Shown here one piece after another: positions 6,210 through 14,300 of a stretch of DNA of 64,000 nucleotides. Origin of the DNA: Heterostelium album PN500 (lineage: Eukaryota; Evosea; Eumycetozoa; Acytosteliales; Acytosteliaceae). Every line of letters starts with the position of its first letter. Within the stretch, counting starts at the first letter, position 1. Location of the stretch: assembly GCF_000004825.1 (NCBI RefSeq), contig NW_008805077.1:124001-188000 (forward strand), in the 5' to 3' direction. The notes below the pieces were generated by a model. It was given only the letters and a program-made list of their open reading frames with translations, had not been told where the DNA came from and ran no database searches. A program made the translations under genes and the position numbers.

Positions 6210-7578
6210 ATGACAAGTGATCTTGATATGCAACAAGATCAAGATATGAATAATAATAATAATAATAGTAGTAACAATAATAGTAATATAGATAATCATT
6301 CGACAATTGTAAATAGTAATAATAATGGATTAGAAGAAGAAGAAGAAGATGTTGATATAGATGAAGTTGAAACAAATACAACAACAACAACAACTACTAC
6401 AACAAGTAGTAATAATAATAATATACATAATGAACATCCAATGGATGAAGATGATATAGATGACGATAGTCATATAACTGCAGAGGAAGAGGAAGAAGAT
6501 AATCATGTGATTGAAGAAGAAGGCGAAGAACAAGAAGAAGGAGTAATGGAGGAAGAAGAAGAAGAGGAAGAGGAGGAGGAGGAAGTAGAGGATGACGATG
6601 ACGATGATGAAGATTATGTGGATGACGAAGAAGAGGAAGAGGATGAGGAAAAAGATATGTCTGAACAACAACAGCTTGATCAAGATGGCCAGTTGGATAT
6701 AGAGATAGATCAGCAGGATCAACAGCAACTACAACAACTACAGCAACTGCAGCAGCAGCAACAACAACTGCAACAACAAGGACAAGATCAGAAGCCAAGA
6801 GAGGTATTTAAGATGCCAGAGGACTATCTCATCCCGATCAAGCTGGACGTACACAACGGAATCTACAAACTCTCCGATTCATTCCTCTGGAATCTCAACG
6901 AGGATTCCATCACACCGGAGCAATACGCCAAGAATCTATGTACAGAGATTGACTATCCCGAGTGGTTCGACGAGATGGTTGCAACATCGATAGCCAACCA
7001 AATCAACAGTCATCGTGAAATCATGAGAAAACTCAATGAAATGTTACCATCGTTAGGTTCCGAAAGATTAGTACCAATATTTGTAAGTTTAATCTATTAT
7101 ATAGATTGTTGTTGTTGTTGTTGTATATACTTTATATTTATATTTTTATTTATAATTAAATTATAGTTGGATTTAACAGTTAATGGATTAAATTTAAAGG
7201 ATCAATTCGATTGGGATTTGTTTTCATCTAATAGTGTAGAGGCATTTGCAAGATCGTTGTGTCTGGATCTCGGTTTGTCAAGAGAGTTTGAGAATGCTAT
7301 TTCATTTGCCATTAGAGAACAGATTCAATTTTACTTTCATCAACTCACACTGAACCCAGTGAAATTCCCAATTAGAGCACCAGTTCACATTCAACAAGTT
7401 ATTAGAAATGATTTTGAATTACCTGTTTGGTAAGTTATTATTATGAATAGACAATTATGTTGTGTAATATTAATCTTATCTAAATCAATAATTATGTAGG
7501 ACACCAACTGTCATTCGTCAAGGACAAATACCATTCCCATATCCATCGAATATGATACCTCAACAACTAAGAAGATAG
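6210..7578 (+). CDS. snf5: SNF5/SMARCB1/SFH1-type subunit of a SWI/SNF-family chromatin remodeller
   Basis: This is a core subunit of ATP-dependent chromatin-remodelling complexes in the nucleus. Exons 6210-7082, 7167-7429 and 7500-7578 join in frame to 404 residues. The first 200 residues are low complexity (Asn, Thr, very acidic Glu/Asp, then polyQ). The SNF5 domain begins near residue 203 (EDYLIPIKLDVHNGIYKLSD) and contains the two family repeats. The first has FLWNLNEDSITPEQYAKNLC, and the second, across intron 1, has LKDQFDWDLFSSNSVEAFAR, followed by the amphipathic ending around QLTLNP and W-TPTVIR. Introns are 84 and 70 bases. The acidic N-terminal block is unusually long. A unicellular genome may use one protein for both SWI/SNF and RSC types. 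Confidence 0.93.
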
Positions 7579-8093
7579 GATGTGATGTGATTGATATTCG
7601 ATGATGATTGAAAAATAAAAATAAAAATAATCTTAAAATCAAAAATAGATAGATATTTAAAGGTATGAAATTCTGTTTCAGTATTGGAACCTAATGTTTC
7701 CTTTGAAACTTTAACAAAAAAAAAAAAAAAGATATTTCTGCAAAATAACTACCAACACCCGTTTTTTATCATAATGAAAAAGATTTATAATCTCCAAAAG
7801 ATGACCACAATGCACCAATAAAAATGTAAATTCTACTCTTTTGCTACCTGACAACAATGAAATAGTCAAATAATATTCAATACAACTTTTATTAGTTAAA
7901 TTTAAACAAAGTTGTTACATAAGAATAAAATATAATAAATAGAATACCTTTTAGAATATTTAAGTAATTTCCTATTATTAAATAATTAGATTTGTATGTA
8001 TTGACAATGTCTTAATCTATTATTTAGATATATATTAGATTTATTAAAATGTTTCTTCAATAAAAAAAAAGTCTTTAGAACAAATAGATTGAA
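7579..8093. other. Intergenic stretch after snf5
   Basis: A/T-rich with no gene seen. It contains an A15 run near 7717 and AAATAAAAATAAA-like polyadenylation signals directly after the snf5 stop. Confidence 0.6.
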
Positions 8094-8243
8094 ATGTTTG
8101 AAAGAATTACAGGTGGTGGAATTGTTGTTTTAAAACCAGGTAGCACCCTTAGATCCAATCCAAATGCTATAATAACGGAAACTCCTCCTTCAAATCCAGG
8201 TTTTGGAGGTGGAATGAACACAAACCAAAACTTTAAGAAATGA
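8094..8243 (+). CDS. Small Pro/Gly-rich ORF A, unknown
   Basis: This 49-codon ORF starts with ATG and ends with TGA. It carries a KPGST block and ends PGFGGGMNTNQNFKK. Its composition (Pro, Gly, Asn, Thr) and KPGS block resemble the small gene at 9373-9592, and the local G+C is higher than the flanks. A splice acceptor at TTACAG inside the first codons leaves open that the true 5' exon lies upstream. It is the weakest of the three small genes and no function is known. Confidence 0.4.
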   Translation: MFERITGGGIVVLKPGSTLRSNPNAIITETPPSNPGFGGGMNTNQNFKK

Positions 8244-8622
8244 AATAAACTACAAACGGTCGAACCTAGTTTTGTAATTTCTTTCAAGTTGCTCTAAAAT
8301 GACAACTCAACTTTTAAAATAATTATAGTATTATTATTTTTTTTATATATAATGTTACATACAATGCTAAAATAATTGTAATTGTTTTTGATATTTATAA
8401 ATATCAAGTTGCTCCTAACACCAGTTTGTTTGGAACCCGCTACAATTTCCCATGGAATCTAGATATTTTTATTTATTTTTTTGATTATTTTCAAAGTATT
8501 TTTTTTGTTTTTTTTTTTGATCTTTTACACTAATTGGTTTAATTTTAAATTTAACAAAATGAATGATGTTATAACAACCAAAATTTTCAGAATCTGAATA
8601 GATTTTATTTATAGAAAACTAA

Positions 8623-8896
8623 ATGGGTAGTGTATTATTCTATAATTCTAGAATCTAGAATTAGTTTTATAGTTAAATAGCTATATATTCGTTGTTAACA
8701 TAGAGAATTCATTTTAATATTCCGAACCAATTCTATAGCTTTTGCAAAACCAAGTCCTTATACTCCAAACGGAGACCCTAGAACAAAGCCCGGCTTGTTG
8801 GCACCACCAAAACCACCACCTCCTCCACCTCCACCCATGGTTCCAGGTGGTGGTGGATTCCCTAATCAAACACAAGGTAGTGGTTGGGGAGTCTAA
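8623..8896 (+). CDS. Small Pro/Gly-rich protein with ATGG micro-exon (gene B)
   Basis: Two exons: ATGG at 8623-8626 followed by GTAGTG, then 8739-8896 after CTATAG. They join as ATG GCT TTT and encode 53 residues. The peptide starts MAFAKPSPYTPNGD, has a run of seven prolines in the middle, then a Gly-rich stretch, and ends GSGWGV. The intron is 112 bases. Gene C has the same four-base first exon, the same phase, the same MAF start and a similar Gly-Trp-Gly ending, which argues that both are real. There is no signal peptide or membrane segment. I do not recognise the family. Confidence 0.6.
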
Positions 8897-9372
8897 ACAA
8901 TAGAACAGCATAGGTAGTTCTTTCCCTTTTTTGTTTCTTTCCCAAAAACAAACAAAAGTATTCCAAACTTCTACTTCTGTAACAAAACAACCTATTTTAT
9001 AATTATGATATATCATCATAATCAAATAAAATCAATAATTATTTTAGTAATAATAGCTAGATAGATGATCATTTTAGAATAAACTAAACCAAATCTGTCA
9101 ATTCAAAAAGATCCGATAGATATTTAATACTTGTTCTAAAAAAAATTACTTAGCAATACCTTTTTGATTTTTTTTAGATATTTTTTTGATTCAAAAATTC
9201 ACAATCTTAAAATGATTACCATTCAATCGTTAATTAAACCTCATTTTACACCATCATTATTATTATTACCTAATATTTTATTACATTATAATTAATAAAT
9301 ACACAACAACAAATAGTTTCACTTCAGAAAAAAAAAAAGATTTATTTATTTACTTTCTGTTAATTAGAAACG

Positions 9373-9592
9373 ATGGGTATGATTTAGTTTGTTTAATTTT
9401 TAATTAAATAATATCTTTAATTTTAATCTATCTTTTTAATTCAATAAAGCTTTTAAGGTTGATGATCATGACTTTGACCATCAAAAACCAGGATCAAGCA
9501 GAATAAACATATCTCCTATTGCACCTTCAACTCAACCACAACCATCTCCTATCATAAAAAAAACACCAGCAAAAGGGGGTTGGGGATCATAA
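9373..9592 (+). CDS. Small Pro/Ser-rich protein with ATGG micro-exon (gene C)
   Basis: Exon 1 is ATGG at 9373-9376 followed by GTATGA. Exon 2 is 9450-9592 after AATAAAG. They join as ATG GCT TTT and encode 48 residues. The peptide starts MAFKVDDHDFDHQKPGSSR, continues with Pro, Ser and Gln, and ends AKGGWGS. The shared MAF start, the KPG block and the terminal GGWGS tie it to gene B, with ORF A a looser relative. No function is recognised. Confidence 0.6.
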
Positions 9593-9939
9593 TCAAAAGT
9601 CAATAGTCAATTGACAAGTTATCCAATTTAATTATGTAAATAATTGTTTTATATAAATAAATCACCAATCATTATTCTTCACAATATTGTATAATGTATT
9701 TACAATTGACATCACACTGTCGACATCATGTGCTATGTAGTAAACTATCATTTTTTGCAACACCAATCAATACATTATTTCTATATATAAATAGCATTCC
9801 TATATATAAATAAATAATTTATAATTTATAATTTCAAAAATATTAAAAACATTGATTTTATTTATTATATTTGATTTGAAATCTATCAAATTGAGAATTG
9901 CATGTAATTGTGTAGCTAGTGCTCCACGAATCTGAATAG
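9593..9939. other. Intergenic stretch
   Basis: A/T-rich with no gene seen. ATATATAAATA repeats lie at about 9780-9815. Confidence 0.5.
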
Positions 9940-10314
9940 AGTAATTATAGACCAGGTGGTTGGGTGAGCATTCGGTTGATGAATAGTTTGTATGTTGATC
10001 TTATGCCCCTCATTTATGAAATGTTCGACGGCATTGGTGACTCTATGATCTTTAGGAATGCTTCTCGGTTCTGGACCCCAAGGCCGGTTCTTTCAAATGA
10101 TGACTCTCTGAAATACACCAAATTTAACTGCGATGGCAAGCTCTGCATGTATACAAGACCAGCATTTGTTCTGAAGAATTCACCAGCCTATTTTAATCGT
10201 TTGTTAACTGTGCAGTTCATCTTTCAGCCATTGATCAAAAGTGGTTTCGTCAAGCGCACACTTCCAAGAAAAACTTACTCCATTTCAACTTACCATGATT
10301 GTGACGACTGCTAG
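9940..10314 (+). CDS. Orphan ORF, possibly an exon or gene remnant
   Basis: An open frame runs from 9940 to the TAG at 10312-10314. The first in-frame ATG is at 9979 (MNSLYVDLMPLIYEMFDGIG), giving about 111 residues. Base composition is clearly richer in G+C than the flanks, with mixed codon use and no low complexity, which suggests present or past coding. It ends in a Cys/Asp-rich tail (YHDCDDC). An ATTATAG acceptor just before the frame would allow an upstream exon. I recognise no domain. It could be a fragment of a mobile element or a decayed gene. Confidence 0.4.
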   Translation, partial: SNYRPGGWVSIRLMNSLYVDLMPLIYEMFDGIGDSMIFRNASRFWTPRPVLSNDDSLKYTKFNCDGKLCMYTRPAFVLKNSPAYFNRLLTVQFIFQPLIKSGFVKRTLPRKTYSISTYHDCDDC

Positions 10315-10443
10315 ATTAAAGGCTGTATATATTATATTGATTTTGAAGAATGAATCAAATTATTAAAAAAAATCAATCAATCAATCAATTAATTTCTTCA
10401 AATTTATATACACAACTAATTGTGTATCAATTTGAAACATACC

Positions 10444-10609
10444 GTTGTAAATACTGTCATACTAGATGATTTAGTCTAGCTAATATAGATAGAGACTACT
10501 GATGATTACAATTGGTAAACTAGGAGGTCATCGACAGCTACCTACATCCTATCTTTTTATCGAACAATCAAGTCAGCGATGACTTGACCACCAAACTACA
10601 GTTCTCAAC
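10444..10609 (+). ncRNA. Candidate structured RNA with nested stems
   Basis: Four helices can be drawn by eye inside one closed outline. GTTG 10444-10447 pairs with CAAC 10606-10609, and ACTGT 10453-10457 with ACAGT 10598-10602. TAGTCT 10472-10477 pairs with AGACTA 10493-10498. AGG/AGGT 10522-10528 pairs with ACCT 10540-10543 and CCT 10548-10550. TCAAGTCA 10568-10575 pairs perfectly with TGACTTGA 10580-10587 around a GCGA (GNRA) loop. The segment is richer in G+C than its surroundings and has no open frame. I do not recognise an snRNA, RNase P or snoRNA. Strand is assumed and covariation is untested. Confidence 0.35.
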
Positions 10610-11356
10610 TTGTTAGATTTATCAAAAAATAAACAAAATCAATGTTTTTGATTGCAATCAAACTATTCAGAATAACATTTCATTTAATCAAATTTGGAAA
10701 TCTTCTTTCTAATTAAAAGAAATCTTAAACTAAAAAAAGAATTCAAATAAAATCATTTCAAATCACTTTTTATTTATTATCGATAACGTTATAAGTGAAA
10801 AAATTAATTAATTAAAAAAAAAAAAAAAAATTGCAAAATTAATGTGGTGTTCATTTTTTTATTTAAATGACTGAAATTTTAATTTATTATCATTTTGAAA
10901 TTAACTGAGTTTTTTTGAAAAATAAAAATAACCAAAACAATTTGTTGTTATTTATAAAATTATTTATATTTTTCAAAAAAAAATAAAATAAAAAATCAGT
11001 GTTTTTCGAACTTCAACACCATTCAACACTCACACATTAAAAAAAACTAAACAATAAATTAATATAACCCAAACACATCAAGATCAATAAAATCAATCAG
11101 TAATATATAATAATTCGATCGATTCGATAGCAATTTTACATTTAATATATTATAATGTATTAAAAAAAATCAATATCTACTACATATATATTTATAAAGA
11201 AAACAATCATATAATATTTATTATTTTAAAGAAACAAAAGAAAATCAGATAGATGATCATCATCATAAAATTAGAATTCAAGATATTTTAGAAATATATT
11301 CATATATATTTAGTCAGGCAGTCAAAAGTAGTCAAGTTCATATATATAGTACAGAC
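10610..11356. other. Upstream region of ints1
   Basis: A/T-rich with A and T runs (for example 10814-10830) and no gene seen. It probably contains the ints1 promoter and 5' UTR. Confidence 0.5.
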
Positions 11357-14300
11357 ATGTCTGGAAATCAGAATAAAAATTTTGGAAAAAGAAATTCTAA
11401 AAATGGTAATTATATAATGAATATAATATATTTAAGATTGATTCAGATTTAGATAAATTTGCATTTCACACACACACACACACTTCAACAACTGTTGTGA
11501 TCATCGACTTTTAATTTAATTTTTCAAAAATGATGATTATAACCATCATTTTTTTTAATTTAAAAAACACATTGTTTTAACTTTTTTTTTTTTTTAATTA
11601 ATATATTTTCAAAAATATCTTACTTATTAATATATATATATATATTATACTTTAATATATAGGACCGCCAATGGATTTAGAGGTAGTGGCACTTGGTGCA
11701 GCCAATAGGAAGAAACCAGCTGCAGTTTCGTCGGCAGGTGTCACAGTGGTTACACCACCGAATATCACTGGTGGTAAACCATTCGATGGCGATATGATGA
11801 CTGCTGCTGCTGCAGTTTCATCGCCTGGCGAACCACTAAACAAGAAGTTGAAATCCGAAAATATCTCAACTATACAGCCACCGCAATTGGTATCTCCAAT
11901 GCTTGTACAACAACAACAACAACAAATGCAACAACAACAACAGATGCAACATCAACAAATGCAACAACAACAACAACATATGCAACAGATGCATCAATCG
12001 ATGGTAGTCCCACCACCAAACTTTATACATACACAGCAACAACAACAGCAACAAATGCAGCAAATGCAACAGATACAACAACAGATGATTCAACAACAGC
12101 AATTACAACAACAGCAACAGCAACAACAAAGAGTAGCAGCAACAACAGCAGGCGGTGGTGTTGGACAACCTTCATTGTCAGTCAGTGAGATATCAAGTAT
12201 TCTAGAGGGATTGTTGAGTGTGGAAATGAATGATGCTGCGCTTACGACGGATAGAGAAAAGTTGATACGTACTCTGAGATTGGTGTTGCAGTCTTTCAAG
12301 ACACTGCCGGCTGCCACTGCCAATGCTCTGCAATCGGAGCCTTATCTCTCACTTCAGAACTTGGCAAAGCGATTGCCACAATTGTTTGCAGCACCCGAAC
12401 TACTGGAGCCACTGCTTCTCCTGCTGAGGAGGGAACCCACACAGATTGGACAGCAAAAGAAGAACAACCTATCGATGGTACTCGCTTGTAACCTGCTGAT
12501 GTCAGCCTATGAGAGTGTACGTGACTGGCCCATCCAGATGTTTGTTGCATACATCGATGATGCCGTTGGCGATCGTCTCTGGGTGGACGATCAAAACTGT
12601 AAAAACTTCACATCCAACATCCTCTCTTCGTTGCCAAGCAAAACCGCAACACCCGCAGCAACAGTAGTTCCACCACCTACACTCAACAGCAACAGTAACA
12701 ATCCGACAGCTACAACAGGAACAACATCAAAACCATCACCTTTAACATCACCACCTCTCAACAATAGTGGATCGACAATACCAACATCTTCAACATCAAC
12801 ATCAACATCCTCAACAACATCGTCAACTTCCTCAACTTCATCATCAACAGTTGATGATGATGAAGAAATTGAGGAAGAGATTATATCTTCTTCTTCATTT
12901 GGATCACAAACACAACAACAATCGACAACAAAAACAACAACAACAGCAACAACTAGTAGTATTAATTCACCAACAAATAGTTCTAGCAACAACTCTAGCA
13001 ATCTAAGTAGTACAAGTAGATTCTCACATTGTCAGGTGGATTTGATTAGATATATAGTTCAACAAATTAGATCGATCAATGTATCGTTCAATGCAAGAGG
13101 ATTGGTGAGATTGTTGATGTTGACAGTTGGCTATAAAGAGTCGAGAGTCGAGGGATCGGCGTTGATCGAAGCTCTGCTTGGCAATCAGAATGTATTTAGA
13201 CCGGCCAAAGAGTATTTGACGACGCTGGTTGCACATTGCACTGAGACAACACCGGAGGATCTAAAGACAGTGCAAACGCTGATGAGAATCAACGTTGCTT
13301 CCGCTCACACCGAAGTGATACCAACGCTCCTAGCCAACAATCAAGGCTACACCGGTGTGGCGCTGCGACAAGCTGTCGAGATTGAACTCGATGTGTCAGC
13401 GGCATCGTCTCACCAACTGCCCAAGTCGAAGCTCGCCACTATCTTTCGGCACTTGGCGCCGTTGCGTGGCGAAGAAGAGTTGGCGTCGATCTTCAAGGAG
13501 TTGGCGTTGCGCGACGACTATCTGAAACTGGCACCGAAAATGATTGTCCGAAAGATCCTCAAAAACTTTATTCAGGTGAATCTCGTTTATTTCTTTACGC
13601 AACTCACCGATATCTCGAAAGACGAAGCGTACATCACGCGTGATATCCAAACCAAAGATAGATGGGCACAACACATGATACATATAATGTGTCAGATTCT
13701 CTTGATGACACCGGGAATCACTGAAATCTCCAAGGATGCCAACAACATGCGTCTCATCCTCTCACAAGTAACCACATCTGCCATCACATGGTGCTCAACT
13801 CTCATCGACATCGTCATATTAAATCCAGCAGATCTAATTGAATTTATAAAGAAATTACTTTTCTTTGATCCAATCAATTCATATGTAAGTACATTGTTAT
13901 AATATTTAGTTTAGTTTGATTTCATTCCATCTCATCACGTTCAATTCAATTCCATACCATACCATTCAATTCAATTCCATTCCATACCATCCCAATATCT
14001 ATTTCCATAATATTAATTTCTTTATTTCCAATATTTTCCATATAGTTCCCTCTTCCAAATGCAATTATTGATATCGATAGAAATGCATATCGTATTTTAT
14101 CGACGGAGGTGCAGATTCATCAAGTTGCAATAGATACACTGTTGACATTGGCATTTGAATATAATTTAGATCGTCGAGTTATTCTTGATTTCATCGATAG
14201 TTTGTTGCGTCGATCACTTTCGATATTGTTTAAATTCGGTATTGTTTCGAATATTACCAATCCGGCACTGGGCGAATCGATTATGCAATTGTCACAGATT

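Follow-up and report, generated by a model that had tools for sequence, protein, structure and literature searches.

A putative family of MAF-KPG-GWG microproteins with a four-base first coding exon in Heterostelium album

Background

Tiny first coding exons have precedents among dictyostelid genes. According to the available text of the report on sigN, the first coding exon measures 13 nt in 89 of 96 relatives of the gene in D. discoideum, and SigN products, with a length of 87-89 aa, abound in Ser, Cys and Gly (PMC2257962). Splicing of a still shorter first coding exon is documented for D. discoideum mef2A, in which RACE data, as far as given in the text available, place an intron between the A and the T of the ATG (PMC3640940); the product, a MADS-box transcription factor roughly a thousand residues long, is unrelated to the proteins discussed here. 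Groups of prestalk and prespore proteins of 57-59 and 69-72 aa, respectively, mentioned for D. discoideum in the available part of the same source (PMC3640940), are alike in size class and lineage to the products described below, the comparison being by description only.

The same gene plan is found in H. album PN500, whose genome was searched as 32.9 Mb in 39 contigs. At least 12 loci of Pfam family PF05710 (L057-L068, a lower bound; starts were read by eye and then joined by script) reside in this genome, and none in 14 control genomes. The first coding exon is 13 nt long in eight of the 12 loci and 10 nt in four, and all 12 acquire a family-like start once an intron of 56-82 bases is removed; this intron is in phase 1, like that of the genes described here. 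We take PF05710, known as 'Coiled', to be the HssA/SigN type of Dictyostelium, an equation which fits both the 13-nt exon and the composition. A preliminary description of the locus analysed in this work had regarded a first exon of four bases as unusual, which was overstated: four bases is short, yet the gene plan is already known in dictyostelids, as illustrated by all 12 PF05710 loci found here and, in the text available, by sigN relatives (PMC2257962) and mef2A (PMC3640940).

Results

The window analysed is an AT-rich stretch of 64,000 nt (contig NW_008805077.1, positions 124,001 to 188,000 of the forward strand). One of the PF05710 loci (L068) lies on the same contig, about 16 kb upstream of it. 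Three consecutive tiny genes, A (8094-8243), B (8623-8896) and C (9373-9592), all on the plus strand, sit between SNF5/SMARCB1, starting from 6210, and Integrator subunit 1, starting from 11671, both identified by Pfam. A search of the interval 7500-11600 against Rfam returned a single match (E 0.36), far under the gathering score of the family. The interval from gene C to Integrator subunit 1 contains an open frame of 124 residues (positions 9940-10314), with the first Met at residue 15; its GC content is 0.41, versus 0.21-0.22 on either side. This frame found no match in Pfam and no confirmed relative in viral contigs; in the PDB it weakly matched a homologue of oxysterol-binding protein (E 0.12), and it is perhaps a gene fragment.

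Gene B opens with a first exon of four bases, ATGG (8623-8626), with an in-frame stop 0 codons upstream. The predicted intron of 112 nt (8627-8738, GTAGTG...CTATAG, GC 0.23) is followed by a second exon (8739-8896, GC 0.51), and the putative product, MAF...TKPG...TQGSGWGV, is 53 aa long. Gene C is similarly organized: an ATGG exon (9373-9376) with an in-frame stop three codons upstream, a predicted intron of 73 nt (9377-9449, GTATGA...ATAAAG, GC 0.12), and a second exon (9450-9592, GC 0.39), for a putative product of 48 aa, MAFKVDD...HQKPGSS...KGGWGS. The coordinates, the sizes of the exons, the junctions and the two protein ends agree with the preliminary description. Both second exons start with CTTTT, which, joined to ATGG, gives MAF. 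ATG is absent from the open stretches running into the second exons of either gene, and the one internal Met of B is residue 35. Read unspliced from ATGG, the frame ends after 11 residues in B and after 4 in C. Alternative acceptors exist in gene B, one of which would produce a 79-nt intron and a product of 64 aa; the 112-nt reading is favoured because it agrees with gene C and with a third gene, D. The donor of B is GTAGTG, versus GTATGA in C and D. The GC content of the second exons of the three genes ranges from 0.39 to 0.51, that of their introns from 0.12 to 0.23, and that of the gap between B and C is 0.22. We infer from these features of the DNA that B, C and D are spliced at the predicted junctions.

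Gene D emerged from a genome-wide search with the tail pattern GGNTGGGGNNNNTAA, the split start not being part of the query. The pattern has 8 matches in 32.9 Mb, corresponding to B, C, D and five sites which end open frames of just 4-17 residues. Read backwards as a control, it has 20 matches versus 8 forward, and the tail pattern itself is not enriched. All three matches found in long frames, those in B, C and D, have the split start. Gene D is on the minus strand of another contig (C7). Its ATGG exon (481427-481424) is followed by a predicted intron of 81 bases, GTATGA...TGTAG, and by a second exon (481342-481197) starting with CATTT; the putative product is MAFGGG...HSKPGV...TQGSGWGA. By sequence, all three genes thus exhibit an ATGG exon, a phase-1 GT-AG intron and a second exon beginning with C-N-TT. 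The notion of a kinship between the tiny genes B and C, with a four-base first coding exon in common, was right, and D matches them.

In the aligned products of B, C and D the residues M1 A2 F3, the KPG and the GWG are invariant. The tail TQGSGWG is identical in B and D, but four of the seven codons show synonymous differences, one of them AGT/TCA for Ser; among the final ten codons, three are identical, four synonymous and three non-synonymous. The codons for KPG are distinct in all three genes (AAGCCCGGC, AAACCAGGA and AAACCGGGA). Synonymous changes in the tail and differing KPG codons indicate that what is conserved is the protein rather than the DNA. The B-D alignment score was matched by none of 1000 shuffles. 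Global scores were matched by 4 of 1000 shuffles for C-D and by 7 for B-C, local scores by 71 and 64, respectively. Beyond the MAF, KPG and GWG motifs the similarity of gene C is weak, and given the weak local scores its kinship rests on the shared ends, the KPG and the identical position of the intron. The middle of the product features a proline run in B, glycine in D, and neither of the two in C. The products of B, C and D are 48-53 aa long, with one Trp each; their composition is dominated by Gly, Pro and polar residues, with pI values of 9.4-12 and GRAVY values from -0.75 to -0.93. Cys is absent from all three, as from the product of ORF A.

No Pfam-A family was found for A, B, C, D or the paralogue of A described below at E values up to 10. 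In the PDB search D matched nothing at E values up to 10, and A had a single, unconvincing match (E 1.4). A family with the MAF, KPG and GWG features is absent from the literature searched, that is, titles and starts of abstracts of open-licence PMC papers. As far as Pfam and these sources reach, the MAF-KPG-GWG microproteins are apparently undescribed, in agreement with the earlier statement that no such family was known. Three members, B, C and the dispersed gene D, were found in the genome. Searches of the genome with the proteins B, C and D retrieved in each case the query itself, and neither of the other two; short low-complexity queries are insensitive, and further divergent members may therefore exist. 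In the 19.9 kb around D no other gene with the ATGG layout or the GWG tail was found. Upstream of each of the three genes, at a distance of up to 350 bases, lies the 10-mer TAGATATTTT. It is the one shared upstream 10-mer seen, versus a mean of 0.11 and a maximum of 5 in 300 simulations, and is too AT-rich to be built on as a shared element.

Within the window, frames ending in [GS]WG or [GS]WGx are 2 of the 576 stop-to-stop frames of at least 40 residues, and these are B and C. Genome-wide, the layout ATGGGT-N-AGCTTTT with introns of 60-121 bases was found 30 times (14 + 16; reversed controls, 43 and 30), and coincides with a tail site in B and C only. On a rough, post hoc estimate which supposes independent placement, tail and layout should fall within 400 nt of each other about 0.0015 times, versus two cases seen; D adds to these, with CATTT in place of CTTTT. 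That the likeness of B and C goes beyond chance, as had been argued from the two genes alone, is borne out by these figures. The layout ATGGGTA-N-AGCNTTY gave 27 sites (reversed control, 28), C and D included, 20 of which were looked at as sequence letters alone; one site (C2:901428) was discarded as a split start, being an exon boundary inside a larger gene. The tail variant GGNTGGGGNTAA occurs at nine sites (reversed control, 20), and KPG is missing from the open frame of each. The looser tail CARGGNNSNGGNTGGGGNNNNTAA, with up to two mismatches, occurs at ten sites (reversed control, 11), among which D and B. One of the ten (L071) carries QGSGWGWLGY in a frame which is presumably superoxide-dismutase-like, and was set aside as not belonging to the family; in the other seven no frame leading from KPG to GWGx was noticed, the frame at L075 being visible in part.

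ORF A (8094..8243, plus strand) is a single exon for 49 aa, MFERITGGGIVVLKPGST...GFGGGMNTNQNFKK. A paralogue, A2 (L054, C11:411016-411186), encodes 56 residues with 51% identity to A (E 3.6e-5), and the score of the pair was matched by none of 1000 shuffles. Conserved between the two are LKPG and the C-terminal block SNPxFGGGMNTNQxFK. As read, both A and A2 are devoid of micro-exon and GWG tail, and A of the MAF start as well. ORF A is probably a real gene, forming a pair with A2, and A2 reveals a second family of predicted tiny proteins besides B, C and D.

A further tiny Gly-rich gene, E (L018, G000:C12:784079 onwards), has as read an ATGG first exon. It resembles B, C and D in size, in Gly content and in this exon, but differs from them in the tail, MNTGSYTFNP, and in the probable number of exons, three as judged by eye. 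Gene E was rejected as a fourth member, since in sets of 1000 shuffles its scores against A, A2, B, C and D were matched between 56 and 825 times.

Discussion

How the tiny genes of the locus are related to each other, and to known families, may be viewed in different ways. The genes A, B and C could form one functional tandem cluster derived from a single ancestor, with A having lost both the intron and the GWG tail. The three genes are adjacent, lie on the same strand, are similar in size and pI, and all include KPG; moreover, A-B and A-C scores were rarely matched by shuffles (14 and 15 of 1000 in global, 33 and 6 of 1000 in local alignments), and A might be distantly connected to C. However, A-D scores were matched by 291 of 1000 shuffles in global and 271 in local alignments, hhalign assigned a probability of 0.9% to the comparison of A with B, C and D, with 10 columns aligned, the nearest relative of A, A2, has a conserved tail of its own, FGGGMNTNQxFK, and the 12.4 kb of loci around A2 host neither a GWGx tail nor the ATGG layout. 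A KPGS block is indeed shared by ORF A, as noted in the preliminary description, but inclusion in the same family is unsupported, because the KPG which A has in common with B, C and D is not enough to establish kinship. A single cluster of this kind is consequently unlikely. A more radical option is that B and C are open frames by mere chance, or remnants of decayed genes, and their shared layout a coincidence. The frames are short and compositionally simple, the B-C similarity is modest, as the shuffle tests indicate, and the search patterns do not exceed their reversed controls. Against this, a search for the tail retrieved D with the same split start, changes in the tail are synonymous, the GC contrast is strong, and far fewer than one coincidence of tail and layout was expected. 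We regard coincidence as very improbable.

The likeness to the HssA/SigN genes deserves attention. B, C and D could be distant members of this prestalk family (PF05710), with a first exon shrunk from 13 to 4 bases. The products are very small and Gly-rich in either case, a phase-1 intron separates a very short first coding exon from one main coding exon, copies are several, some close together and some dispersed, and PF05710 is present in the same host (for SigN, as far as given in the available text of PMC2257962). Yet the four genes A-D lack a match to PF05710, as to any other Pfam family, and lack the Cys present in SigN; B, C and D are shorter, have a 4-nt first exon, and carry KPG and the GWG tail. 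Starts of PF05710 proteins read MTIL.SL.. or MLIKSL.., versus MAF, and no common motif is apparent by eye. Such a derivation is quite improbable. According to another view, the GSGWG tail is a single GW motif of the Argonaute-hook type, and the proteins would serve as small Argonaute competitors or adaptors in dictyostelid RNA silencing. A Trp set between Gly residues in a disordered context of small residues resembles GW/WG hooks, and the tail Trp of B, C and D is in such a setting, disorder being probable. Argonautes have been studied in Dictyostelium, and elsewhere GW motifs are reported to bind Argonaute. On the other hand, known hooks mostly have several GW/WG motifs, whereas these proteins have one Trp each, and GWG has other origins too, as exemplified in the same genome by QGSGWGWLGY at L071. 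The hook reading is possible but weak, and we deem it extremely improbable as an account of the family.

We consider it probable, though by no means assured, that B, C and D are real protein-coding genes making up one small, fast-evolving microprotein family, which likely acts via its end motifs. Speaking against a family are the number of members, limited to three, the weak similarity of C, search patterns which do not rise above reversed controls, and the donor and the alternative acceptors of B. If the family is real, transcripts of the three genes would carry the four-base first coding exon, and before removal of the phase-1 intron the ATG would yield just a peptide of 11 residues from B, or 4 from C. 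Splicing would join ATGG to the second exon and create the MAF start. The middle of the protein drifts, while the MAF start, the central Lys-Pro-Gly and the C-terminal Gly-Trp-Gly plus one residue are kept. Because of their composition the products are probably disordered, and they may be cytosolic or nuclear. The likeliest mode of action is through the short motifs at the ends, as small peptides which may bind a partner or associate with themselves. Expression plausibly occurs at a particular stage, by analogy with the unrelated SigN microproteins, which have a similar gene plan.

A broader scenario can be envisaged, in which dictyostelids harbour a hidden class of splicing-gated microproteins, removal of the intron acts as an on-switch, and the GWG tail binds a conserved partner. 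The class would comprise unrelated families split just past the start codon, HssA/SigN with 10-13 nt, and the MAF-KPG-GWG genes together with gene E with 4 nt. This scenario is speculative and distinctly unlikely. The occurrence in one genome of unrelated tiny families in which the start codon is immediately followed by an intron raises the question of whether this placement is selected, either for expression or as a gate, or is a by-product. Genes of the B, C and D type can escape gene finders because the start codon lies in a four-base exon, and the authors of a dictyostelid re-annotation state, in the text available, that prediction performs poorly on genes whose exons are very short (PMC5282741). 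If transcribed, B, C and D would enlarge the dictyostelid gene set by a microprotein family which is apparently undescribed.
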